Source: Capsulimonadaceae bacterium
GTDB taxonomy: Bacteria; Armatimonadota; Armatimonadia; Armatimonadales; Capsulimonadaceae
Assembly (NCBI GenBank): GCA_031292625.1
Contig: JARLGU010000006.1
Location: forward strand, 62,001 to 126,000
Reading direction: 5' to 3'
DNA length: 64,000 nucleotides
A program made the position numbers and the translations under genes. The notes below the pieces were generated by a model, which saw only the letters and a list, made by a program, of their open reading frames with translations, had not been told where the DNA came from and did not search any database. Positions 42,058 to 55,119 of this stretch are shown in pieces. Every line of letters starts with the position of its first letter. Position 1 is the stretch's first letter.

Positions 42058-43059
42058 TCACGCAAGGCGTTCGAGCGCTTCGAGCGTGACCGCATGCTGA
42101 AGCGGCTGTCCCGCGATCATGCGATCCAGTTCGGCGATACAGTAGTCCGCCAGACGGTGCACTTCGTCGTTGATGCCGCCCGCGATATGCGTCGAGAGAT
42201 GCACGTTTGGCAGCTTCGCCAGCCGGGAGTCCGCGCCCGGCGGCTCGGGATCGGTGACGTCAAGCAGTGCGGTAACATCCTTCCGCCGTTCGAGAATGTC
42301 CGCCAGCGCGACCTCATCCACCGTCGCACCTCGGCCGGTGTTAATGAACGTGGCGTTCGGCCGCAAGCGCTCCAAAACCTCGCGGCTAATCAATCGAACG
42401 GTTTTCGGATTGTTGGCAAGGTGATTTGAGACCACATATCCGCGATCGAACGCCTCCGCAAGCGTCTCCACCTTCTCGACGCCCATCTGCGCCGCGCGTT
42501 CGTGCGTCAGGAAGGGGTCGAAGACAATCACTTTGACCTGGAACGGCTTCAAAAGCTCCACGACATGCGTCCCGATTGCCCCGGCGCCCAGAAGCGCCAC
42601 GGTTTCGCCATAGGCCCCAGCGCCGCGGAATGCGCTCCGCTGCGTCTCCCGCCCGCCGTCGTAAGCGGCGACGTTCCGGAAGTAGCCTTTCGTCGCGAGA
42701 ATGATCTGCGCAAGGGTAAACTCAGCAACCGGTATCGCGTTCGCTCGCCAACCGCTTACGACCGTGATCCCGCGAAGCAGGAGCGGCCGCGCGAAGTATT
42801 GGACGCTGCCAGCAGCGTAAAACACGGCTTTCAGGCGGGGCATCAGATCAAGATGCCGCGATTCGAGAGCGGGCATGCTCCAGGTCGAAAAGATCACGTC
42901 CACATCGTGCAGGCAGTCCGGCGCTTCAAGGAGTTGAGCTGGCGAGACGAAATCGGGGAAAAGGTTGGTTCGCCTGGCTATCTCGTCCCGGCGTCCGGCG
43001 CCGTAGACGTAATCGATCATCTCAGGCGTCGCGACAAGGGCGGCATTGAGCGTAGGCAT
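42058..43059 (-). CDS. D-isomer-specific 2-hydroxyacid dehydrogenase
   Basis: A 333-residue NAD-dependent dehydrogenase of the 2-hydroxyacid/phosphoglycerate dehydrogenase family. The nucleotide motif is G-A-G-A-I-G (~154-159); catalytic Arg is in N-T-G-R-G-A (~242-247), the Glu follows in D-P-E-P-P, and the His is in S-T-H-I-A-G (~293-298). A C-terminal regulatory domain is absent. Substrate unknown. It sits next to a LacI regulator (91 bases), which may control it. Confidence 0.9.
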   Translation of the reverse strand: MPTLNAALVATPEMIDYVYGAGRRDEIARRTNLFPDFVSPAQLLEAPDCLHDVDVIFSTWSMPALESRHLDLMPRLKAVFYAAGSVQYFARPLLLRGITVVSGWRANAIPVAEFTLAQIILATKGYFRNVAAYDGGRETQRSAFRGAGAYGETVALLGAGAIGTHVVELLKPFQVKVIVFDPFLTHERAAQMGVEKVETLAEAFDRGYVVSNHLANNPKTVRLISREVLERLRPNATFINTGRGATVDEVALADILERRKDVTALLDVTDPEPPGADSRLAKLPNVHLSTHIAGGINDEVHRLADYCIAELDRMIAGQPLQHAVTLEALERLA

Positions 43060-43150: not shown

Positions 43151-44131
43151 CTATCCCGTGGCGCCCTCTTTGAACTCGACTGACAGATGCGTCAGAGGCG
43201 GGATCGCATCTCCGGCAACGCGACGATCGAGAAGGCGAACGGCCTCGCGCGCGACGTCGCGCCATGGAGCGACGACCGTGGTCAATCGCATTTGCGATTC
43301 AGGAGAAAACGGGACGCCGTCGAAACCGATTACGGCCAGCTCCGTGGGAACGCTTATCCCCAAATCCGAGCAATGGCCCAACAAAGATTCCGCCGCGCGG
43401 TCGTGCCAGCAGACGACGGCAGTCGGGCGTTCTGATACCGGCAGCGCCATGTACGCGTCCAGTTCTTCAAATCCAGCGTGATCGGCAAACTCGAGCACGG
43501 CCAATCCAAGCCGCTCAGCCTCGCGAAGAAACGCAGCGTGCCGTTCGAGAGCGGACGCCATCGGGGCATACGCCGTGCAGTAGACAACCCGCCGGTGACC
43601 GCGTTCAGCCAGGTGCTCCGCGATTAGCCTTCCCCCCATCTGCTCATCGAGAGAGACCGACGGAATGCTCGGCACGGGGTCGACGATTGCGACGACCGGA
43701 AGAGACGAGTTGGCAAGCGCCGCGCAGAGAGCGTCATACTCGTACATAAAAACGACAAGCCCGTCGATCTTGCCGTTTGCCAACGCGTTATAGACCGTCA
43801 CCGGATCCGTCCCGCGAAACGTGCCGACAAGAAGAAGGTCCTTCTCGCACTCGTTACACCCCGCGCGAAGCCCTTCCAAGATGTTCGCAATATAGGCGTT
43901 CGGAATCTCGAAGTGGCGGCTGCCCGAGTAGAAGCCATAGATGTCGGTGCGTCCCAGCTTAAGCGATTGCGCCAAATAGTTGGGGCGATAGCCTAGCTCG
44001 TCGACGGCGGAAAGAATCCGCTGTCGCGTCGACTGCGGAATGGAATACTTGGGGTTGCCGCCCAACACCTTGGAGACCGTGCCATGCGTCACGCCCGCTC
44101 GTTTAGCGACCTCGCGAATGGAAACTGTCAC
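43151..44131 (-). CDS. LacI-family transcriptional regulator
   Basis: A 326-residue sugar-responsive repressor. GTG 44131, with AGGAG 7 bases upstream, starts V-S-I-R-E-V-A-K-R-A-G-V-T-H-G-T-V-S-K-V-L (the LacI helix-turn-helix), followed by a hinge (L-G-Y-R-P-N-Y-L-A-Q-S-L) and a periplasmic-binding-type effector domain with G-K-I-D-G-L-V-V-F (~115) and V-I-G-F-D-G-V-P. It lies between the 2-hydroxyacid dehydrogenase and two pseudopilin genes on the same strand. It may bind the CpG-centred palindromes at 45206 and 46347, or the one before the kinase gene at 46552. Confidence 0.93.
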   Translation of the reverse strand: MTVSIREVAKRAGVTHGTVSKVLGGNPKYSIPQSTRQRILSAVDELGYRPNYLAQSLKLGRTDIYGFYSGSRHFEIPNAYIANILEGLRAGCNECEKDLLLVGTFRGTDPVTVYNALANGKIDGLVVFMYEYDALCAALANSSLPVVAIVDPVPSIPSVSLDEQMGGRLIAEHLAERGHRRVVYCTAYAPMASALERHAAFLREAERLGLAVLEFADHAGFEELDAYMALPVSERPTAVVCWHDRAAESLLGHCSDLGISVPTELAVIGFDGVPFSPESQMRLTTVVAPWRDVAREAVRLLDRRVAGDAIPPLTHLSVEFKEGATG

Positions 44132-44280
44132 TTTGCCGCTCCTGCGCCCGCGGTCGCAAGCGATTGCCTCGCCCACCGCGCATAGCTTATTGATATTATA
44201 TCCGCCATTACAGATTATCCCAACGATTCCATGAGCCACCGAGAGGCCTGTCGTCGCACCCCGCACGGCCAGTCCTGATT

Positions 44281-45180
44281 TTAGTGAAAATTGAACGTCG
44301 CAGCGTAGGTCTTTGGTACGCTGCAATTGGTTGGGGTCGCCTGTCCACCCGGGCTATTCTGGCAGTTCGTACCGGCCGACCCGGCAGACACGCTCGATGG
44401 CATGAACCACTTTACATGATTGTCGGACATCAGGAAGTTGGAGCCGCCGTTGTGGAGCCCGGTTACGCCAGTGTAAAAGTACGAAGTTGTCGTGTTCGCA
44501 TCATTCGGGTTGGTATCGCAGCTCGCCCCGCTTGTCCCGCCCAAACAGGCGTTGCCGAGTAAACCGGTCGCATATTTCATACACGTCGCCGACGTCGGAA
44601 GGGTATGCCCGCACGCGCTTATGTTGCTCGTGAGCAGACTCCCTGCATCCAGACCGTATCCGGATGGAGAATAGAGCCAATCCGATGCCGCGACCGAGGC
44701 GTTCGGAGGCAGCGAAAGGTTGACAGCGCCCTGCGCGTTCTTAATCTCGAAAAGAATCACGGTTTGACTCGGAGCCTGCATCTGCGAGATCTCGATCGGA
44801 ACAATAAAGCCGACCGCCGTATATGAGACCAAGTTCGAGTTAATCGCGTAGGAGATATAATCCAGCGGATTAACATCATGTGGACACAAGAACACCCCCG
44901 TGCTCTTCACATAAGGATAGATCATCCCGGCCCAGCCGACGCCCGTTCCGTACGTATCGTGACCGCAGGGAACGTACTCGTCATAATCTTGCTCATATTG
45001 AGTGTAGGCGAGCCCGATCTGCTTCAAATTGGATAGGCACGCAGCGCCCCGGGCCTTCTCGCGGGCTGTCGCGAATACTGGAAACAGAATCGCCGCGAGT
45101 ATCGCAATGATGGCTATTACAACCAAAAGTTCAATCAATGTAAATCCCGTTCGATCCGTCTGAGCGGATGCCTTCATCAT
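44281..45180 (-). CDS. DUF1559-type pseudopilin (prepilin N-terminus)
   Basis: A 299-residue exported protein. The N-terminal [13 protein letters not shown] is a prepilin cleavage site (after G), followed by A-R-E-K-A-R-x-x-A-C-x-x-N-L-K-Q-I-G-L (DUF1559). Near the C-terminus the H-X9-D-G signature appears as [12 protein letters not shown], with Asn in place of Gly. These are type II/IV-like pseudopilins, common in planctomycetes and armatimonads. ATG 45180 follows GGAGG. It has its own promoter and palindrome (45206-45255). Confidence 0.93.
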
Positions 45181-45205
45181 ACATACGCCTCCCACGCTGA
45201 ACAAT

Positions 45206-45415: not shown

Positions 45416-46315
45416 TCACATATTATCCCAGCTGTTGTGCGCGTCGCCATAACACCAGCCGTCCTGCCGCGCCGGCTCGGTCTTGCCGTTCACGGACGTC
45501 GGACAGTTCGTCTGTCCCAACGGGCCGAGAAATTGCGTAATCGGAAGCCATTTGCAGTGGCCGTCTACGTAGATGACGCACAACCCGTTGTTGTGACGTC
45601 CAACCGGACGGCGGCTGTTGTTCTGATTGTCAGTCGTATAGGCTGTGCTCCCGCTCGTAAAGTTTCCGGGCGGTGTTACCTGATAGTCCACGGGACCAAT
45701 GACGTATCCCTGTTGAAGCCAGTTGAGCGGATTGTCGTTATCCACGGACGTTTCAATATCGGTAGCTGTCGTGCCAGTCTCGCCTGTATACCCAAGCTGA
45801 GCGCCCTCCGCGAAGAGAAACGTCCCGGCCGTATCCGCGATCTGCGAGACCAGGACAGGCGTCCAATCGTAAAGGGTCGAACCGCTCTGCCACGCGAACG
45901 ACGAAAGGTTCATATTCATTCCATATCCGCCGCCGCCGCCGGACACCGTCATTCCTGGCACACATGTCGATCCGGGACATGCGGTGCCATAGGGCCCCCA
46001 TGCAACGTCTGGACATACGAAAACCTGATACGTCTTAAGATAAGGGTACAGCAGGTTAGGCCACCGCACGTAATAATTCGGTGTGGATTGACTGCACCCG
46101 CCTGGAACGAGGCACTCATCATAATCCTGCGTATACTGCGCCGTGGCGAGACCAATCTGCTTCGCGTTGTTCATACAGGCCGTCTGCCGCGCCTTTTCAC
46201 GCGCCGTCGCAAAAACTGGAAACAAAATTGCTGCCAATATCGCAATAATGGCTATTACAACGAGTAATTCAATAAGTGTAAATCCGGCTTCCGTACGCCG
46301 CAAAACAGTCTTCAT
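45416..46315 (-). CDS. DUF1559-type pseudopilin (prepilin N-terminus)
   Basis: A 299-residue paralogue of the neighbouring pseudopilin. Cleavage site [15 protein letters not shown]1559 opening [10 protein letters not shown], and the canonical H-X9-D-G as [12 protein letters not shown]. The central variable part has many Cys and Gly residues. ATG 46315 is 12 bases after GGAGG. It is transcribed from its own promoter (46347-46396), with a similar operator. Its gap to the first gene (45181-45415) holds only that gene's promoter and operator. Confidence 0.93.
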
Positions 46316-46346
46316 CGTAGGCCCGCCTCCCTTGAACAATTTGGAT

Positions 46347-46396
46347 GAAACCGTGTTCCCACATATCAGTGTATCAGGTGTCTCCAAGTCTGTCAA
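46347..46396 (-). promoter_or_regulatory. Promoter and operator of the second pseudopilin gene
   Basis: On the minus strand TTGACA (46391-46396), 17 bases, TACACT (46368-46373), then GAACACGGTTTC-type half-palindrome (46347-46358; plus strand GAAACCGTGTTC) 9 bases downstream, matching the first gene's GAACACGTGTTC in 10 of 12 positions on the plus strand. The paired arrangement suggests one shared regulator. Confidence 0.7.
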
Positions 46397-46523
46397 GAAC
46401 ACTCTTCGCAAATCGGTCCCAATTCCTGCCAACAGTCTCGGGAAAAGCAGTTTACCAAGTCTATCCTTCCACCGCTTACGAGCGTTTAGCCTGCAAATCT
46501 TGGCAGCGCCCTGCACGATATTC

Positions 46524-46569
46524 TTGACATCTCCGGCGTGCGGCAGTATACTGCATAAACGGTTATGCA
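46524..46569 (+). promoter_or_regulatory. Promoter and LacI-type operator of the glucuronate/gluconate operon
   Basis: TTGACA (46524-46529), 17 bases, TATACT (46547-46552), both close to consensus. The palindrome TGCATAAACGGTTATGCA (46552-46569) starts at the end of the -10, CpG-centred, as LacI-family operators are. A LacI gene lies 2.4 kb away on the other strand. The promoter is 83 bases upstream of the kinase start. Confidence 0.7.
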
Positions 46570-46651
46570 AGCTCGCGGCGATCGTCAAGAACCGGCGGGC
46601 AGCAAACGCGCGGGCGCGTCCCCTGGCCCCCCGGGCGACCAGGATAAATAT

Positions 46652-48139
46652 ATGAAACCGAAATCCGTTCTCGCACTCGACATCGGCACGTCCAGCGTGC
46701 GAGCCTCCCTCTTCGACCGCAGGGGCCGCCCCATACCCGGAGCAGACGCCCAAATCTCGTACGATAACGTTACGACCGCCGACGGAGGCGTCTACGTCGA
46801 CGCCGAGACGCTGCTCAATATAAGCGTCACGGTTGCTGCGCGCGCCGCTTCATCGGCGGCAGCCAACGATACGGAGATTGCCGGTGTCGGCATTTCCTGC
46901 TTCTGGCACAGCCTCGTCGGCGCCGGCGCGGACAATCGCGCCATCACTCCCGTTTACTCATGGGCCGATACGCGCTCCGCACGGTACGCCGCCGACCTGC
47001 GCGCGTCGCTCGACGAGGGAGCCTACCACGCGCGGACAGGCTGCGTCTTCCACCCCAGTTATTGGCCCGCGAAACTTCGCTGGCTCGAAGCTGAACACTC
47101 CGCCCTTTTCAGCCGCGTCGTTCGCTGGATGTCTTTTGGCGAATACCTCTTGCTGCGCGTGTTCGGACAGTCCGGATGCAGCCTTTCGATGGCAGCGGGG
47201 ACCGGTCTTTTCGACCCCAACCGCGCCGCCTGGGACCCGGAAAGCTTCACGCTCGCGCCGATCCGCGCCGAGCAGCTCCTGCCTCTCGTCGACCGCACAG
47301 ATCCCGTCGCAAACGCGACGCCTGAATTTGCGCGCGCCCTCGGCTCCCTGGCCGCGTTACCCTGGTTTCCCGCTGTCGGCGACGGCGCTTGTTCCAATAT
47401 TGGCAGCGGAGCGTTTTCTCAAGAGCGGATCGCGATCAATGTCGGAACGTCCGGCGCGATGCGCGTCGCAGTGGAAGCAGGCAGCGTCGATATTCCAGAC
47501 GGCCTCTTCTGTTACCGTATCGACTCAGGCCGCTTTCTTGTCGGAGGCGCTGTTTCTTGTGCGGGAAACGTCCACGCCTGGCAGCAAGAGCAACTGCGCC
47601 TCCCCGATGGAAGCGCAATGTCGCGGTCGCTTGCGGCGATGGCTCCCGATGCGCACGGACTGACCGTCCTCCCATTCTGGGCCGGCGAGCGTTCGCCAGG
47701 CTGGCACACATCCGCGCGGGCGACGATCGCCGGGATGAACCTCAATACGACGTCGCTGGACATCGCTCGCGCCTCTCACGAGGCCGTCGCGTACACATTC
47801 GCCTCGATCCTGGACAGGCTGCGCAGCCGCTTCCCGAACGCACGAGAGATCGTGGCCTCGGGCGGCGCGGTACGACGCAACCCGGCGTGGGTAAAAATCA
47901 TGGCCGATGTCTTCGGCGCGCCCGTGCGGATCAGCGAAATCGCCGAAGCGTCCAGCCGCGGAGCCGCCCTGATGGCGCTGGACGGCGCTGGACTGATCGA
48001 TGGTCTCGGCAACGCACCGGCGTATCTGGGACGCACGTTCGAGCCCGATCCGGCGCACCACGAAGTGTACGAAAAAGCGCGAGAGCGTTACGGGCGGCTT
48101 TACGACATGGTGCTGAACGGGTTTGACGCCGGGGAGTGA
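46652..48139 (+). CDS. FGGY-family carbohydrate kinase, gluconokinase-like
   Basis: A 495-residue FGGY kinase. [10 protein letters not shown] (~7-16) binds phosphate; the sugar-site loop is C-F-W-H-S-L-V-G then Y-S-W-A-D-T-R-S (~103-110). [12 protein letters not shown] and the G-T-S-G-A-M-R-V segment (~268) match gluconate kinases more than xylulokinases. G-E-R-S-P (~350) and [10 protein letters not shown] (~406) are the FGGY signature. ATG 46652 follows AGGATAAAT. It leads the operon with larA, uxaC, uxuB and larEBC and is followed by a REP-like hairpin pair. Gluconate is inferred. Confidence 0.9.
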
Positions 48140-48146
48140 AGAGAAG

Positions 48147-48250
48147 CGAAGAATTTAGGAACGCTCCTTTGCCGCTGGACAATTTTTGGCAAAGGGTTGT
48201 CGTGAGTTTAAGGCGCTTCGCGACGCAGGCAGTCCTGAATCTTTCTCGCA
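48147..48250. repeat. REP-like hairpin pair between the kinase and LarA genes (copy D)
   Basis: Left arm 48147-48190 has AATTTAGGAACGCTCC and GCCGCTGGAC before TTTTTGG, a plausible terminator for the kinase gene. Right arm 48212-48250, read on the minus strand, shares TGCGAGAAAGATTCAGGAC with elements A and B. Sequence is more divergent than in A and B. Confidence 0.6.
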
Positions 48251-48294
48251 ACGCCGACTAATTGGACACCTTCTTAACGAAAAGGAACTGATCA

Positions 48295-49572
48295 ATGACC
48301 ACATCCACCGCGCAGCCCACTGAGGTTGCCTATTTAAGCGACGACGAGGCCCGCGCCAAAATCGCCGAGGCGCTCGCGAAGCTAAACTTGGCCGGCAAGC
48401 GCGTCCTGCTAATCGTGCCGGACTCGACGCGAACCGCGCCGGTCGGCTTGCTGTTCAAGTCGATCCACGCGGAAATCGGCGCTAGCGTCGCGAAGCTCGA
48501 CGTGATGATCGCGCTCGGCACCCATCCGCCGATGAGCGATGAAGCGATCCTGCGCCGCCTGGAGATCACGGCCGAGGAGCGCGCGGGCAAGTACGGCAAG
48601 GTTGCGATGCTCAACCACGACTGGAAGAACGGCAGCGCCTTGACGCGCCTCGGGACAATCTCCGCGGCCGACATTGCCGAGCTTTCCGGCGGACTGTTCT
48701 CGATGGATGTCAACGTCGATGTCAACAGCGCGATCTTCAATTATGACCAGTTGATTATCGTCGGCCCCGTCTTCCCGCACGAAGTCGTCGGCTTCTCCGG
48801 CGGCAACAAGTATCTGTTCCCCGGCATCAGCGGCGCGGAGATCTTGAACTTCTTCCACTGGCTCGGAGCGATTATCACCAGCCCGCGAATAATCGGCCAC
48901 AAGTGGACGCCGGTCCGCAAGGTCGTCGACCGCGCGGCGTCGCTCGTCCCGGTCCCGCGCTTCGCTTTTTGCATGGTCGTCCACCAGCATAAGCTCGCCG
49001 GACTGTACACGGGGACGCCTGAGGAGGCATGGACCGATGCGGCCGACCACAGCGCGCGCGTTCACGTTCTCGTCAAGCCGCATCCCTACAAAACGGTACT
49101 TTCCGCGGCGCCGCTCATGTACGACGAGATCTGGGTCGGAGCAAAATGCATGTACAAGCTCGAGCCCGTGGTCGAAGATGGCGGCGAGTTGATTATCTAC
49201 GCCCCCCACATCGCGCACGTTTCGGTTGTCCACGGCGCGCTGATCGAACGGATCGGCTACCACACCCGCGACTACTTCGTCAAGCAGTGGGACCGTTTCA
49301 AAGACGAACCGTGGGGCGTTCTGGCCCACTCGACCCATGTACGCGGCGTCGGGACCTACGAAAACGGCGTCGAGAAGCCGCGCATTCGAGTGACGCTGGC
49401 AACCGCGATCCCCGAGGATGTCTGCCGGTCGATCAACATGGGCTACCGCGACCCCGCGTCCATCAACGTCGCCGACTACCAAAATCGCGAGGACGAAGGC
49501 GTACTCTACGTCCCCGAAGCCGGAGAAATGCTCTACCGGCTCACCAATCCGCCCGCATGGGCGTCTGAATAA
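48295..49572 (+). CDS. LarA-family nickel-pincer 2-hydroxyacid racemase/epimerase
   Basis: A 425-residue LarA homologue (DUF2088), acting in the cytoplasm. All catalytic positions known from L. plantarum LarA are present: D43 and R46 in P-D-S-T-R (for D72/R75), H77 in G-T-H-P-P-M (for H108), H162 in P-H-E-V-V-G-F (for H174), K172 in G-G-N-K-Y-L-F-P-G, which would carry the pincer cofactor (for K184), and H188 for the nickel ligand H200. The H162-K172-H188 spacing of 10 and 16 residues is identical. Its operon suggests D-mannonate/D-gluconate 2-epimerisation (GntE-type); this is inference. RBS AAAGGAA. Confidence 0.9.
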   Translation: MTTSTAQPTEVAYLSDDEARAKIAEALAKLNLAGKRVLLIVPDSTRTAPVGLLFKSIHAEIGASVAKLDVMIALGTHPPMSDEAILRRLEITAEERAGKYGKVAMLNHDWKNGSALTRLGTISAADIAELSGGLFSMDVNVDVNSAIFNYDQLIIVGPVFPHEVVGFSGGNKYLFPGISGAEILNFFHWLGAIITSPRIIGHKWTPVRKVVDRAASLVPVPRFAFCMVVHQHKLAGLYTGTPEEAWTDAADHSARVHVLVKPHPYKTVLSAAPLMYDEIWVGAKCMYKLEPVVEDGGELIIYAPHIAHVSVVHGALIERIGYHTRDYFVKQWDRFKDEPWGVLAHSTHVRGVGTYENGVEKPRIRVTLATAIPEDVCRSINMGYRDPASINVADYQNREDEGVLYVPEAGEMLYRLTNPPAWASE

Positions 49573-49724
49573 TCGATTCTAGGAGTCCTCCCGTTTCGGG
49601 AGGAAGGGGCCCACGAAGTGGGAAGGTGGGCAGGCTCTAGAAGCTATTTGCCAACGCTAATGGCGTTTGTAATCATACAAGGCAGGTCTCTTAACCCGGT
49701 GACCCGCCTGGGGGCTATACGACA
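49573..49724 (+). other. Intercistronic hairpins between larA and uxaC
   Basis: CCTCCCG (49587-49593)/CGGGAGG (49597-49603) and CCCAC (49610-49614)/GTGGG (49618-49622) are two stacked hairpins. They resemble the 12978-13055 repeat. AACGC-TAATG-GCGTT follows near 49654. They may lower expression of the downstream genes or be part of a repeat. Confidence 0.5.
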
Positions 49725-51146
49725 ATGTCCTTTATACATGACGACTTTCTGCTCGAAACGAAGACGGCGCAACGGCTCTTTCACGAATACGCCGCCAACC
49801 TTCCGATCATTGACTACCACAACCATCTGCCGCCGGCCGATATCGCGCGAAACCGCCGGTTCGCCAACCTTTTCGAGATCTGGCTCGAGGGCGACCACTA
49901 TAAGTGGCGCGCCATGCGAGCCAACGGCTCCGCCGAGCGGTTCTGCACCGGCGATGCCGAGCCTTACGACAAATTCCTTGCGTGGGCGAAGACGATCCCG
50001 CAGACGCTGCGCAACCCGCTCTACCATTGGAGCCATCTGGAACTGAAGCGCTATTTTGGAATCGATGTGCTGCTCAGCGAAAAGACGGCCGATGAAGTCT
50101 GGCGGATCGCGAACGAGAAGTTGGCGCAGCCGGAACTGAGCGTCGAGGGGATTCTGGCGAAGTTCAATGTCGCGGCCCTGTGCACCACCGACGACCCGTC
50201 AGACGACCTGGCGGCACACATTGCAATCGGCAAGTCGGGATTGCGAACGAAAGTCTTCCCGACGTTCCGCCCGGATAAGGCTCTCACGGTTAACAATCCG
50301 GATGCGTTCAACGCCTGGATCAATAAGCTCGCCGCAGCCAGCAACACGGACATTTCGACGCTGCCCGAACTGCTCGACGCGCTGGACAAGCGACACGCCT
50401 TTTTCCACGAAGCCGGATGCCGCCTATCGGACCATGGCCTTTCGGCATGCTACGCAGACTTCCCAAGCGACTTCGAGGCCGCTGCGATCTTCGACCGCGC
50501 ACGCTGGGGCAAGGCAGCCTCGCCCGATGAGCACGCCAAATTCGCCGCGCACCTGATGCTGCATTTCGGCCGTCTGGACGCCAAGCGCGGCTGGACCAAA
50601 CAGCTTCACCTCGGTCCATTGCGCAACAACAACTCCCGCGCGTTCGCCAAGCTCGGCCCTGACACCGGATTCGACTCGATTGGCGATCTCCCGCAGGCGC
50701 AGGCGCTTTCGTCGTACCTTGACCGGCTCGATCAAGAGGGCAACCTGCCGAAGACGATCCTGTACAATATCAACCCGAACGACAACTACACGCTCGCGAC
50801 GATGGCCGGCAATTTCCAGGATGGCGTCATCCCCGGCAAGATTCAATTTGGCGCGGGCTGGTGGCATCTCGACACGAAGTGGGGCATGGAAACGCAAATG
50901 AACGCGCTCTCCAATGTCGGCCTGCTCTCGCGCTTCATCGGCATGCTGACCGACTCCCGATCGTTCATGTCTTTCCCGCGCCACGAGTACTTCCGGCGCG
51001 TACTTTGCAACCTGATCGGCTCCGATGTCGAACGAGGCGAGATCCCCGGCGACGACGAACTTACCGGCAGCCTGATCCGCAATATCTGCTTCGAAAACGC
51101 TAAAAACTATCTCGGTTTCAATCTCTTGGAGGAGACAAGCAAATGA
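49725..51146 (+). CDS. uxaC: Glucuronate isomerase
   Basis: A 473-residue UxaC that converts D-glucuronate to D-fructuronate (and galacturonate to tagaturonate). The amidohydrolase-like metal motif is I-I-D-Y-H-N-H-L (H32 and H34), H-E-A-G-C-R-L-S-D-H-G-L (~226-237) holds further active-site residues, and F-G-A-G-W-W is near 375. It is full length. The stop overlaps the SDR start as ATGA. It fits directly upstream of the mannonate-forming dehydrogenase. Confidence 0.98.
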   Translation: MSFIHDDFLLETKTAQRLFHEYAANLPIIDYHNHLPPADIARNRRFANLFEIWLEGDHYKWRAMRANGSAERFCTGDAEPYDKFLAWAKTIPQTLRNPLYHWSHLELKRYFGIDVLLSEKTADEVWRIANEKLAQPELSVEGILAKFNVAALCTTDDPSDDLAAHIAIGKSGLRTKVFPTFRPDKALTVNNPDAFNAWINKLAAASNTDISTLPELLDALDKRHAFFHEAGCRLSDHGLSACYADFPSDFEAAAIFDRARWGKAASPDEHAKFAAHLMLHFGRLDAKRGWTKQLHLGPLRNNNSRAFAKLGPDTGFDSIGDLPQAQALSSYLDRLDQEGNLPKTILYNINPNDNYTLATMAGNFQDGVIPGKIQFGAGWWHLDTKWGMETQMNALSNVGLLSRFIGMLTDSRSFMSFPRHEYFRRVLCNLIGSDVERGEIPGDDELTGSLIRNICFENAKNYLGFNLLEETSK

Positions 51147-51952
51147 CGAATCTATTCGATCTCAGCGGCGAAACGGCCGTTGTTCTTGGCGGCGCGGGAG
51201 CCCTCGGCGGCGCAAATGCGGAGGCCCTGGCAAAGGCGGGCGCGAAGGTCGCGATCGTCGATCTCAGCGCCGAGCGCGGCGCGGTGCGCGTCAAGGCGAT
51301 CGAGGATGCCGGCGGACAGGCCATTTTCGTGACCGGCAACTCCCTCGAAGCGGCAACCCTGGTCGCCGCCCGCGAGACCATCGAGGCCAAGTTCGGCCCC
51401 GCAACCATCCTGCTCAACGCAGCTGGCGGCAACCACCCCGACGCCATTATCTCGCCAGGGGAGGACGTCTGCAAGCTGCCGATCGAAGCCTGGCAGCACG
51501 TCTTCAACCTCAACCTGGTCGGCGGCGCATTGCTGCCCTGCCAGATCTTTGGCGAGTCGATGCTTAAAGCCGCCAAGGGAAGCATCATCAACATCGCGTC
51601 GATGTCCGGAATTATTCCGCTTTCCCGCGTCGTCGCCTACTCCGCCGCCAAAGCCGCCGTAATCAACCTGACCAAGTTCCTTGCACGCGAGTGGGCCACT
51701 ACCGGCGTCCGCGTGAACTCGATCAGCCCGGGCTTCTTCCCCGCCAAACAGAACGCCGGCCTTCTTTTCAACGAAGACGGCTCCTACACGGATCGCAGCA
51801 AACTGATCATCGGTCACACTCCGATGGGGCGTTTCGGCAATCCCGAAGAGCTCGCCGGCGCGATTATCTGGCTGGCGTCGTCCAAGGCATCGTCGTTCGT
51901 TACCGGCGCAAACATCGCCATTGACGGAGGATTCTCGTCTACGACAATCTAA
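51143..51952 (+). CDS. uxuB: UxuB-like SDR D-mannonate oxidoreductase (fructuronate reductase)
   Basis: A 269-residue short-chain dehydrogenase. The nucleotide motif is G-G-A-G-A-L-G-G (~16-23), N-A-A-G-G-N-H-P (~92-99) is the segment of B. subtilis-type SDR UxuB, and the catalytic Ser153, Tyr166 and Lys170 are in I-A-S-M-S, V-A-Y-S-A-A-K. D40 at the end of strand 2 suggests NAD. It likely reduces fructuronate to D-mannonate. Overlaps uxaC by 4 bases, so the two are translated together. Confidence 0.9.
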   Translation: MTNLFDLSGETAVVLGGAGALGGANAEALAKAGAKVAIVDLSAERGAVRVKAIEDAGGQAIFVTGNSLEAATLVAARETIEAKFGPATILLNAAGGNHPDAIISPGEDVCKLPIEAWQHVFNLNLVGGALLPCQIFGESMLKAAKGSIINIASMSGIIPLSRVVAYSAAKAAVINLTKFLAREWATTGVRVNSISPGFFPAKQNAGLLFNEDGSYTDRSKLIIGHTPMGRFGNPEELAGAIIWLASSKASSFVTGANIAIDGGFSSTTI

Positions 51953-51967
51953 CGGTGTAGGTGATGT

Positions 51968-52118
51968 AGGACTTTCGCTTTGCTCGCGGAAACAAACACT
52001 CAGCGCATCGCTTTCACTCCGCGAAGCGCTAGAAAAATGGCCAAGCGGCCATAGAGCGTTCTTAATCCGTGCCGCTAACGAACAAGATCTTCGTAAACGG
52101 CGAGTAAGCGAAAGTCCT
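51968..52118. repeat. 151-bp element with terminal inverted repeats, containing REP-like hairpin E
   Basis: AGGACTTTCGCTT (51968-51980) and AAGCGAAAGTCCT (52106-52118) are perfect inverted 13-mers; the match extends inward imperfectly to about 20 bases. Inside, 52031-52068 is a REP-like hairpin (TGGCC-AAGC-GGCCA, then TTCTTAATCC), in the orientation whose A-run precedes the hairpin. It could be a MITE-like insertion or a structured leader for larE. Confidence 0.6.
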
Positions 52119-52172
52119 CGCCCCCTATGAGCAGGGCAGGCGATGGAGCGTCGTCCATCGGAAGGATAAGAA

Positions 52173-53051
52173 ATGGCCATATTCGTGCCGGTGGGAGACA
52201 GGCCGGCGAATGAGTTGCCGGTGGATCAAAAAGTAGCCTCCCTGCGCAAGATTCTGCGCGAGATGGGCTCGGTCGTCGTCGGCTACTCAGGCGGCGCGGA
52301 CAGCGCGCTGTTGCTGAAGATTGCTCACGATGAGCTGGGCGACAAAGCGGTCGGCGCGATTGCCGTCTCGGAGTCCTATCCGCGACGCGAACGAGATTCC
52401 GCGCTGGCGCTCGCCAAGGACCTGGGCATCCCGGTCGAAGTAGTCGAAACGCGGGAGATCGAGCGCGAAGAATACGCCGCAAACCCCGCGAACCGCTGCT
52501 ATTACTGCAAGCTCGAACTCTTTTCACACCTGTCACGGATCGCCCGCGACCGCGGCATCCGCTGGCTCGCCTACGGCGCAAACCACGATGACCTTGGCGA
52601 CTACCGGCCGGGGCAGGAAGCCGGCCGCGAAGTGGGCGCACGCGCGCCGCTTATTGAGGCGGGCCTCACGAAGGCCGAGATCCGGCACGTCTCGCACGAG
52701 ATCGGTCTGCCGACCTGGGACAAGCCCGCGATGGCCTGCCTCTCGTCGCGTTTCCCGTATGGCGCGCGCATTACGAAAGAGCTCCTCGCGCGCGTCGAAG
52801 CGGCGGAGGATTTCCTGCGCGCCGACCTTGGTTTCCGCGAAGTGCGCGTACGCCATCATGACACGGTGGCGCGCATCGAAGTGGGCGCGGACGAGGTGGA
52901 CCGGATGCTCAGCCGTGACCTTCGCATGCAGATCACGACCCGGCTCAAGGAGCTTGGCTACCTGCACGTCGCGGTCGATCTGGAAGGCTTTCGCAGCGGC
53001 AGCATGAATGCCGTCCTCACACTCGCACCGGAGCGCACTAATGGACACTGA
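52173..53051 (+). CDS. larE: LarE-type sulfur transferase for nickel-pincer cofactor synthesis
   Basis: A 292-residue PP-loop protein: Y-S-G-G-A-D-S-A (38-45) binds ATP. It activates the P2CMN carboxylates by AMP and supplies sulfur in NPN cofactor synthesis. Cys189 in A-M-A-C-L-S-S-R aligns with the sacrificial Cys176 of L. plantarum LarE, and C109 and C112 (N-R-C-Y-Y-C-K) make a three-Cys set as in the [4Fe-4S] LarE type. The stop overlaps larB by 11 bases. The start ATG 52173 follows GGAAGGAT. Confidence 0.93.
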   Translation: MAIFVPVGDRPANELPVDQKVASLRKILREMGSVVVGYSGGADSALLLKIAHDELGDKAVGAIAVSESYPRRERDSALALAKDLGIPVEVVETREIEREEYAANPANRCYYCKLELFSHLSRIARDRGIRWLAYGANHDDLGDYRPGQEAGREVGARAPLIEAGLTKAEIRHVSHEIGLPTWDKPAMACLSSRFPYGARITKELLARVEAAEDFLRADLGFREVRVRHHDTVARIEVGADEVDRMLSRDLRMQITTRLKELGYLHVAVDLEGFRSGSMNAVLTLAPERTNGH

Positions 53052-53814
53052 TCGACTTGCGACTCTGCTGGCCGAGGTGCGCGACGGTTCCGTCGCAATC
53101 GACGATGCCCTTGACCAGCTAAAGCGCCTGCCCTTCGAGACCGTCGAGGGCCACGCTCGGCTCGATACACACCGCGCCCTTCGGACCGGAGCGGCGGAAG
53201 TCGTCTTCTGCCCGGGCAAGAGCCCGGATCAGGTCGCATCCATCATGAAGCGCCTCGTCGAACTCTCCGGCCGCGCCATGGCAAGCCGGGCAACTCGCGA
53301 GCAATACGACGCCGTCAAGGCCGTGGCGCCAGATGCCGTCTACAACGATCTCGCGCAAATGATCCTGATCGGCGCCCCGATCCCCGCGCCCCACCCCGAT
53401 CGCTATGTCGGCGTGCTCACGGCCGGCACGGCGGATATCCGCGTTGGTGAAGAAGCCGCCCTTGTGCTCGAATGGCAGGGGACGCGTGCGGAACGCCTCT
53501 ACGATGTGGGCGTCGCCGGCCTCCATCGGTTGCTCTCGCAGCTAGACGTTGTCCAGAAGGCGGACGTACTGATCGTCGTCGCGGGAATGGAAGGCGCGCT
53601 CGCCAGCGTCGCCGCCGGACTCGTATCGTGTCCCGTTGTCGCAGTGCCCACCAGCATTGGCTACGGCGCATCGCTCGGAGGCTTCGCGCCGCTGCTGACG
53701 ATGCTCAACTCGTGCGCCGGAGGGATCGCAGTGGTCAACATCGACAACGGATTCGGCGCAGCCCAGTTCGCGCACCGTATCGTCTCCGGGCAAGCGGCCC
53801 GGAGCAAAGATTAG
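53041..53814 (+). CDS. larB: LarB, pyridinium-3,5-biscarboxylic acid mononucleotide synthase
   Basis: A 257-residue LarB that carboxylates and hydrolyses nicotinic acid adenine dinucleotide to the biscarboxylic mononucleotide (P2CMN). The C-terminal ~110-257 is PurE-like: T-A-G-T-A-D-I (~129), M-E-G-A-L-A-S-V (~187), P-T-S-I-G-Y-G (~207) and N-I-D-N-G-F-G-A (~238). ATG 53041 lies 11 bases inside larE. It makes the first cofactor intermediate that LarE then sulfurates. Confidence 0.95.
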   Translation: MDTDRLATLLAEVRDGSVAIDDALDQLKRLPFETVEGHARLDTHRALRTGAAEVVFCPGKSPDQVASIMKRLVELSGRAMASRATREQYDAVKAVAPDAVYNDLAQMILIGAPIPAPHPDRYVGVLTAGTADIRVGEEAALVLEWQGTRAERLYDVGVAGLHRLLSQLDVVQKADVLIVVAGMEGALASVAAGLVSCPVVAVPTSIGYGASLGGFAPLLTMLNSCAGGIAVVNIDNGFGAAQFAHRIVSGQAARSKD

Positions 53815-53867
53815 CAGCCCCAATCCAAGGCGGGCGAGGGAACCAGATGTTTCGCCGCGAACCGGCA

Positions 53868-53909
53868 TAAGAAAAGCGGCCACCCGGCCATAAAGGGATC
53901 TTAAATCCC
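53868..53909. repeat. REP-like hairpin F before larC
   Basis: AAGAAAAGCGGCC-AC-CCGGCCATAAAG then GGGATCTTAAATCCC, matching copy E before larE in core positions (GGCCA, CGGCCATA, TCTTAA). It lies 11 bases before the larC start, so it could affect larC translation. Confidence 0.6.
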
Positions 53910-53919
53910 GGAGCCCGTA

Positions 53920-55119
53920 ATGAAGATAGCCTATTTCGATTGTTTCTCGGGGATCAGCGGCGATATGTCGCTGGCGGCGCTGTTAGCCTGCGGCGCGGAT
54001 GAAGGCTTGCTGCGCGCACGCCTCGATCAGCTTAAGCTGCCCGGCTATGAGCTCGTCGTTCGACGGGTCAAATGCGAGGGGATCGCGGCCGTCGGTGTGG
54101 ACGTCAAGCTCACAGAAACCGATCACGGGCACGGTCGTCACCTCTCGGACATTCGCAAAATGATCGAAGGAGCCAAACTGCCGGAGCGGGCCACAAGTCG
54201 TGCAATCGCCGTATTCGAGAAGCTCGCCGACGCCGAAGCGGGCATACACGGAGCGACGCGCGAAGAGATCCACTTCCACGAAGTGGGTGCAGTCGATTCC
54301 ATCGTCGACATTGTAGGCGCGTGCATTCTTTTGGACATTTTGGACATCGACGTCGTGGCGTGTTCGACTCTGCCATGGAGCACGGGCGCAATCAAGTGCC
54401 AGCATGGCGTCATGCCGGTCCCCGCTCCCGCGACCATCAAGCTGCTGGAAGGCTTCCCAATGCGGCAGACGAATATCGTCGGCGAGCTGATCACGCCAAC
54501 TGGCGCAGCGCTCCTCGCGGCGCTCGCTAGCCCTGCCGTCGCCGGCCGGCCGCCAGCGATGCGCATTGCGGGAAGCGGTTTCGGCGCGGGCAAAAAGCAG
54601 TTTGCCCCCGATACGCCCAACATTCTTCGCGTCATCCTGGGCGAAACCGAAACGGCCGCAGACCGCACACCGAGCTCCGTCGCGGTGATTGAGACGAATC
54701 TCGACGATGTCTCGCCCGAATCCTACGACCTGCTGATGCAGCGGGCGTTTAACGCGGGCGCGCTGGATGTGTTTTTCGTCCCAGCGCAAATGAAGAAGAA
54801 CCGTCCCGGCACCCTCGTCACCGTTCTGTGTCCGCCGGAGCGCGTCGACGCCATCGCGCGGCTGCTCTTCACGGAAGCAGGGACATTCGGCGTGCGCGTT
54901 CGCACGCAGGACCGCATCACGCTCACGCGGCGGTTCGAGAAGGTGGAGACGCCATTCGGCCCGATCACCCTCAAGATCGGCGCACTTGGCGGCGAGGACC
55001 TGGCGACCGCGCCCGAATACGAAGACTGCCGCGCCGCGGCGGTCACGCACGATGTCCCCCTGGCGCGCGTATACGACGCCGCGAGAGCCGCTTCCGCAAC
55101 CCTCGCGGGTAGTGGTTAG
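53920..55119 (+). CDS. larC: LarC, nickel insertion protein for the pincer cofactor
   Basis: A 399-residue LarC (CTP-dependent cyclometallase) that inserts nickel into the sulfurated pincer precursor. The N-terminal D-C-F-S-G-I-S-G-D-M (7-16) and H-F-H-E-V-G-A-V-D-S-I-V-D (~117-129) are conserved; N-L-D-D-V-S-P-E (~251) opens the C-terminal half. In L. plantarum this protein is made from larC1 and larC2 by a programmed frameshift; here it is one frame. The start is preceded by hairpin F and the gene is ended by the terminator at 55153. Confidence 0.95.
   Translation: MKIAYFDCFSGISGDMSLAALLACGADEGLLRARLDQLKLPGYELVVRRVKCEGIAAVGVDVKLTETDHGHGRHLSDIRKMIEGAKLPERATSRAIAVFEKLADAEAGIHGATREEIHFHEVGAVDSIVDIVGACILLDILDIDVVACSTLPWSTGAIKCQHGVMPVPAPATIKLLEGFPMRQTNIVGELITPTGAALLAALASPAVAGRPPAMRIAGSGFGAGKKQFAPDTPNILRVILGETETAADRTPSSVAVIETNLDDVSPESYDLLMQRAFNAGALDVFFVPAQMKKNRPGTLVTVLCPPERVDAIARLLFTEAGTFGVRVRTQDRITLTRRFEKVETPFGPITLKIGALGGEDLATAPEYEDCRAAAVTHDVPLARVYDAARAASATLAGSG

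Follow-up and report, generated by a model that had tools for sequence, protein, structure and literature searches.

The 64,000-nt window analysed here, a stretch of the genome of a Capsulimonadaceae bacterium of the phylum Armatimonadota (GCA_031292625.1, contig JARLGU010000006.1, positions 62,001 to 126,000), carries on its forward strand an apparent operon (46652–55119; Table 1) in which a homologue of the lactate racemase LarA lies among uronate genes, a carbohydrate kinase gene and genes for the nickel-pincer nucleotide (NPN) cofactor. The open reading frame (ORF) of the LarA homologue (48295–49572) encodes 425 aa. Its product matches Lar_N (PF09861, E=7.7e-20), and among solved structures 4NAR is nearest to it in sequence (E=5.7e-58 over residues 18–416), so the homology lies far beyond chance; lactate and malate racemase structures trail, at 2e-07 at best and then weaker. 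4NAR is GntE2 of Thermotoga maritima. In the alignment the protein is 33–36% identical to GntE2 and 18% identical to Lactiplantibacillus plantarum LarA. Judged from its sequence, it is probably a member of a known enzyme kind, GntE, the D-mannonate/D-gluconate 2-epimerases.

Residue-level comparison agrees with a preliminary description of the locus, which had reported an intact catalytic set. D43, R46, H77, H162, K172 and H188 align with D72, R75, H108, H174, K184 and H200 of LarA and with D38, R41, H73, H154, K164 and H180 of GntE2, and the H–K–H spacing of 10 and 16 residues matches that of L. plantarum LarA. The remaining catalytic lysine, K284 (LarA K298), was left off the earlier list and is present, so that both the NPN-binding set (R46, K172, H188) and the catalytic set (D43, H77, H162, K284) are complete in the alignment. 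All seven residues are invariant in 20 relatives with 61–77% identity. GntE proteins usually carry E, V, A and H at LarA positions 175, 176, 358 and 359 (PMC11770544). This signature occurs here as E163, V164, A344 and H345, again invariant in the 20 relatives, with E163/V164 aligning directly and A344/H345 corresponding to LarA 358/359 only by way of the GntE2 alignment; LarA itself has F, F and W at the first three positions. W280 aligns with the tryptophan typical of LarAH groups 18–20. Three substrate regions have been described: the pair of residues that follows the catalytic histidine, the helix preceding the catalytic lysine, and the start of helix 14 (PMC7583248).

The predicted structure, built from the window protein and the sequences of its relatives only, has a mean predicted local distance difference test (pLDDT) score of 83.9 and is closest in fold to 4NAR (template modelling (TM) score 0.86, root-mean-square deviation 2.4 Å), with LarA structures at TM-scores of 0.68–0.73. 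A tree places the protein with GntE2 and apart from LarA with a support of 90, the exact position being rough because of the quick method and the long GntE2 and LarA branches. Together with Armatimonadota and Verrucomicrobiota proteins of 60–77% identity it forms a branch of its own, and its best NCBIfam model is NF052594, a nickel-dependent putative hexonate epimerase (E=3e-54).

A further trait noted in the preliminary description, a loop between H77 and H162 some 19 residues longer than in the lactate enzyme, was borne out: the stretch measures 85 residues here and 66 in L. plantarum LarA. The bulk of the extra length consists of 13 residues around positions 124–137, predicted to form a short helix and then a loop. 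The stretch is no oddity of this protein alone: it has 81 residues in GntE2, 77–78 in the Embleya, Saccharobesus and Catenovulum proteins and 77 in Armatimonadota proteins from another branch. Since its length is 77–85 across all GntE-like rows and 66–67 in true lactate-type rows, the longer stretch appears as a trait common to GntE-type proteins. The preliminary description suggested that it may fit a larger sugar-acid substrate; the published substrate-contact residues (E163, V164, the 280–284 helix and A344/H345) all fall outside it. Two other Armatimonadota LarA homologues (L127 and L128, from genomes G046 and G005) have R-V/I after the catalytic histidine, W/Y in the substrate helix and a His–His stretch of lactate length.

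Table 1. Features of the GntE-type cluster and its upstream region (window coordinates)
Feature	Position	Strand	Basis
Sigma-70-like promoter, TTGACA-17-TATACT, upstream of kinase	46524–46552	+	11/12 consensus matches; consensus scan only
Perfect 7+7 palindrome TGCATAAACGGTTATGCA (TGCATAA-acgg-TTATGCA) abutting the -10 box	46552–46569		Operator-like by consensus match only
FGGY carbohydrate kinase, probably gluconokinase	46652–48139	+	FGGY_N/C domains; start 46652 inferred, ORF opens at 46565
GntE-type LarA homologue, proposed NPN-dependent D-mannonate/D-gluconate 2-epimerase	48295–49572	+	4NAR match, fold, catalytic/NPN-binding residues, E-V-A-H signature
uxaC, glucuronate (uronate) isomerase	49725–51146	+	PF02614 E=2e-199; NF002794 599 bits, cut-off 387
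Short-chain dehydrogenase/reductase (SDR)-type D-mannonate oxidoreductase (fructuronate reductase)	51143–51952	+	NF006132 338.1 bits, cut-off 281
larE, sacrificial sulfur transferase for making NPN	52173–53051	+	TIGR00268 323.9 bits, cut-off 150
larB, NPN cofactor synthesis	53008–53814	+	NF033503 273.7 bits, cut-off 175
larC, nickel insertion	53920–55119	+	PF01969 E=6e-138; TIGR00299 and NF052512 over cut-off

The uxaC and SDR genes overlap by 4 bases, and intergenic gaps within the cluster reach 220 bases. The kinase has its best Protein Data Bank match in the gluconate kinase 3GBT (E=1.2e-52). The preliminary description had characterized the surroundings as uronate genes, not lactate genes, which holds for the nearest neighbours and overlooks larE, larB and larC further downstream. 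Its view that the context is unusual does not stand: uronate genes with a gluconokinase are the published setting of GntE, and the cofactor genes belong to the same cluster.

Upstream, the palindrome that abuts the promoter-like element is possibly an operator. No second exact copy was found in the window or in 129 loci, and classical LacI control of the cluster is accordingly not established. A LacI-family regulator gene (43151–44326, reverse strand) lies ~2.3 kb upstream of the cluster, and two genes with a prepilin-type N-terminus (44281–45204 and 45416–46753, reverse strand) stand between it and the kinase gene. Also nearby, on the reverse strand, lies a D-isomer-specific 2-hydroxyacid dehydrogenase gene (42058–43059).

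The best explanation of this arrangement, and in our judgement a likely one, is a GntE-type enzyme encoded together with its cofactor genes and with the genes that feed it from glucuronate, in a route bypassing mannonate dehydratase. This reading draws on homology, conserved residues, gene order and gene presence or absence, from which we infer substrate, direction, cofactor loading and co-transcription. NPN produced by LarB, LarE and LarC, encoded just downstream, would be loaded onto the protein, where R46, K172 and H188 would hold it and D43, H77, H162 and K284 would serve in catalysis. By homology with LarA and GntE2, NPN would transiently accept a hydride from C2 of the sugar-acid substrate and return it to the opposite face of C2, a mechanism established for those two enzymes (PMC7583248). 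In the proposed route, UxaC would turn D-glucuronate into D-fructuronate, from which the SDR would make D-mannonate by reduction, GntE would invert C2 to give D-gluconate, an activity on D-mannonate demonstrated for GntE2 (PMC7583248), and the FGGY kinase would form 6-phosphogluconate, which would enter the pentose phosphate pathway via 6-phosphogluconate dehydrogenase, the mannonate dehydratase step being skipped.

The genome measures 5.77 Mb and is 96.4% complete. The search for UxuA (PF03786), the mannonate dehydratase of the canonical Ashwell glucuronate pathway, returned no match in the genome, with a positive T. maritima control. Edd was likewise not found in the genome, the sole IlvD/Edd protein being IlvD. 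Two 6-phosphogluconate dehydrogenases score over cut-off, namely Gnd and a shorter NAD-type enzyme adjoining glucose-6-phosphate dehydrogenase, and there are two genes of the 2-keto-3-deoxy-6-phosphogluconate aldolase family and one gene resembling 2-keto-3-deoxygluconate (KDG) kinase. One mannitol-dehydrogenase-family protein of ~387 aa, possibly a second fructuronate reductase, is encoded elsewhere (L120, G000:C60:140204-140623). The genome has no LarC match other than the larC of the cluster. A second LarA (L086, G000:C43:115079-118693), of lactate/short-chain type and nearest to the broad-spectrum enzyme of Isosphaera pallida (9EID, 467 bits), lies outside the cluster; because the sole LarC sits in the window, both this protein and the cluster GntE would depend on the cluster.

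Relatives of the gene are widespread in both Verrucomicrobiota and Armatimonadota. Neighbours were counted by tblastn with named queries, which finds homologues of those queries only, because ORF clustering suffered from spurious long ORFs in the GC-rich DNA. Of 80 relatives, 47 have a homologue of the SDR mannonate oxidoreductase with at least 44% identity close to the gene, followed by GntK-type gluconokinase (7), Gnd (6), UxaC (4) and FGGY kinase (3). Gnd is also adjacent to more divergent copies from Armatimonadota; larC, SDR, epimerase and gnd follow one another on one short contig. On a Saccharobesus litoralis plasmid, a 589-aa protein annotated as gluconokinase only (L122:7479-9248) is a fusion of GntK and a GntE-like LarA, its gene being followed by larE, larB, UxaE, gnd and uxaC. 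The Catenovulum cluster comprises uxaC, TRAP (tripartite ATP-independent periplasmic) transporter genes, GntK, epimerase, larC, larE and larB, and these two independent lineages agree in presenting the same picture. On the Saccharobesus plasmid, larB is separated from the tagaturonate epimerase gene by the gene for a TauE/DsbD/NicO-like membrane protein (L122:10786-11469), possibly a nickel transporter for the cofactor. The interchange of gluconokinase families beside the same epimerase suggests gluconate or 6-phosphogluconate as its product. The surmise of the preliminary description that the substrate is not lactate but a sugar acid of six carbons is supported by likeness to GntE2 in sequence and predicted fold, by the signature residues and by the mannonate oxidoreductase and gluconokinase neighbours of many relatives.

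Across 241 genomes of the phylum, the gene occurs in 11 of 19 UxaC carriers versus 19 of 222 non-carriers (odds ratio 14.7, p=7e-7, a statistic that ignores kinship). Among 50 gene-carrying genomes, 33 have no UxuA match, 15 only divergent relatives and 2 a strong full-length match.

Several observations weigh against a GntE-type bypass in this genome. Identity to GntE2 is ~33–36%, and the protein scores 184.2 bits against NF052594, under the cut-off of 500, for which reason we do not file it as LarAH18. The kinase, too, falls under the gluconokinase cut-off (gntK_FGGY 239.9 bits, cut-off 648.6, its best NCBIfam match; XylB 224.6, cut-off 380.3). GntE enzymes have high published Km values for mannonate, at 9–120 mM. 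At 96.4% completeness, a UxuA gene could have been missed. The genome also encodes an enolase-superfamily sugar-acid dehydratase (L081), which scores over the galactonate dehydratase cut-off and under those of ManD and gluconate dehydratase; such an enzyme could also dehydrate gluconate to KDG, which would open an alternative branch from gluconate. Finally, some genomes, and T. maritima, carry both UxuA and the GntE gene, and the gene shows no association in either direction with full-length UxuA across the 241 genomes (Fisher p=0.36). Mutual exclusion of the two across the phylum is thereby not supported, and we propose replacement of UxuA for this genome and many of its relatives without extending it to a general rule.

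The order of the kinase and epimerase steps is the point at which gene content fits two schemes alike and cannot tell between them. D-mannonate might be phosphorylated first, the LarA homologue then epimerizing 6-phosphomannonate to 6-phosphogluconate. Extracts of Lactobacillus suebicus show this very order, in an activity without an assigned gene (PMC6978723), and the GntK–LarA fusion is compatible with either sequence of steps. All GntE-like rows carry a basic residue four positions past the catalytic lysine (K288 here, R in other lineages), where LarA rows have Ala/Gly; this lineage-wide Lys/Arg, one turn past the catalytic lysine, makes a phosphorylated substrate possible when taken with the high GntE Km and the L. 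suebicus order. Nevertheless, GntE2 turns over free mannonate with a kcat of 197 per s (PMC7583248), E. coli GntK is reported as inactive on mannonate, as cited in PMC6978723, and the kinase genes look like those of gluconokinases. We therefore regard phosphorylation before epimerization as unlikely. The corollary, that the GntE branch and this protein with it use 6-phosphomannonate in the cell and so supply the gene for the orphan L. suebicus 6-phosphomannonate 2-epimerase, with the neighbouring kinase as a mannonate kinase, appears equally doubtful.

Less probable again is that the enzyme epimerizes another aldonate or aldarate, such as D-altronate or, following a suggestion made for GntE1, D-glucarate. 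The Km of GntE1 for mannonate is 120 mM, leading its authors to suggest a different native substrate (PMC7583248), and many Verrucomicrobiota loci lack UxaC and the kinase nearby by tblastn; however, the adjoining SDR scores over the D-mannonate oxidoreductase cut-off and is the most constant neighbour, and gluconokinase and Gnd recur beside the gene. A racemase of lactate or another small hydroxy acid, with uronate neighbours by chance, retains hardly any probability. Membership of the LarA superfamily would allow it, and the nearby LarB, LarC and LarE would serve any LarA, yet F175/F176 of LarA are replaced by E/V, identity to LarA is 18% versus 33% to GntE2, and the genome holds a separate LarA of lactate/short-chain type. 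Lactate or malate racemase identity is rejected on the substrate residues and the sequence distance.

The GntE assignment can be set against known systems. With GntE2 (LarAH20, T. maritima, 4NAR) the protein shares the fold, all cofactor and catalytic residues, the glutamate after the catalytic histidine, W280, Y287, K288, the A-H motif, the longer His–His stretch and the uronate and gluconokinase context reported for T. maritima; it differs in having V at position 164, where GntE2 has S, in lacking a UxuA match in its genome, where T. maritima has UxuA, and in having larE-larB-larC in the same cluster. It carries the group signature of LarAH18/19/20 (EV/S, W, A/V; NF052594), while its subthreshold score and separate Armatimonadota/Verrucomicrobiota branch set it apart from these groups. 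With L. plantarum LarA (5HUQ) it shares the superfamily, the NPN-binding and catalytic residues and the H–K–H spacing, and departs from it in the E/V substitution, the 19 additional residues and the low identity. For T. maritima, a hexuronate route via GntE was put forward by Rodionova in 2012 (cited in PMC7583248 and PMC6978723). As outlined in those citing papers, that proposal likewise links hexuronates to the pentose phosphate pathway through mannonate, gluconate and 6-phosphogluconate; the present case differs in that UxuA and Edd were not found and that all predicted steps to 6-phosphogluconate, with the cofactor genes, lie in one cluster.

Enzyme class and pathway type are thus already published (the 2012 proposal; assay in PMC7583248). 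What is new is the putative GntE branch of Armatimonadota and Verrucomicrobiota and the self-contained, UxuA-less cluster. The cluster offers a compact test bed for the physiological substrate of GntE, given its high Km, and for the identity of the orphan 6-phosphomannonate epimerase. Automatic annotation would label such proteins lactate racemase. Together, these findings would put an enzyme with a nickel-pincer cofactor at a step that appears necessary for using glucuronate in the large and mostly uncultured Armatimonadota and Verrucomicrobiota, where it would connect uronates with pentose phosphates in a redox-neutral way.
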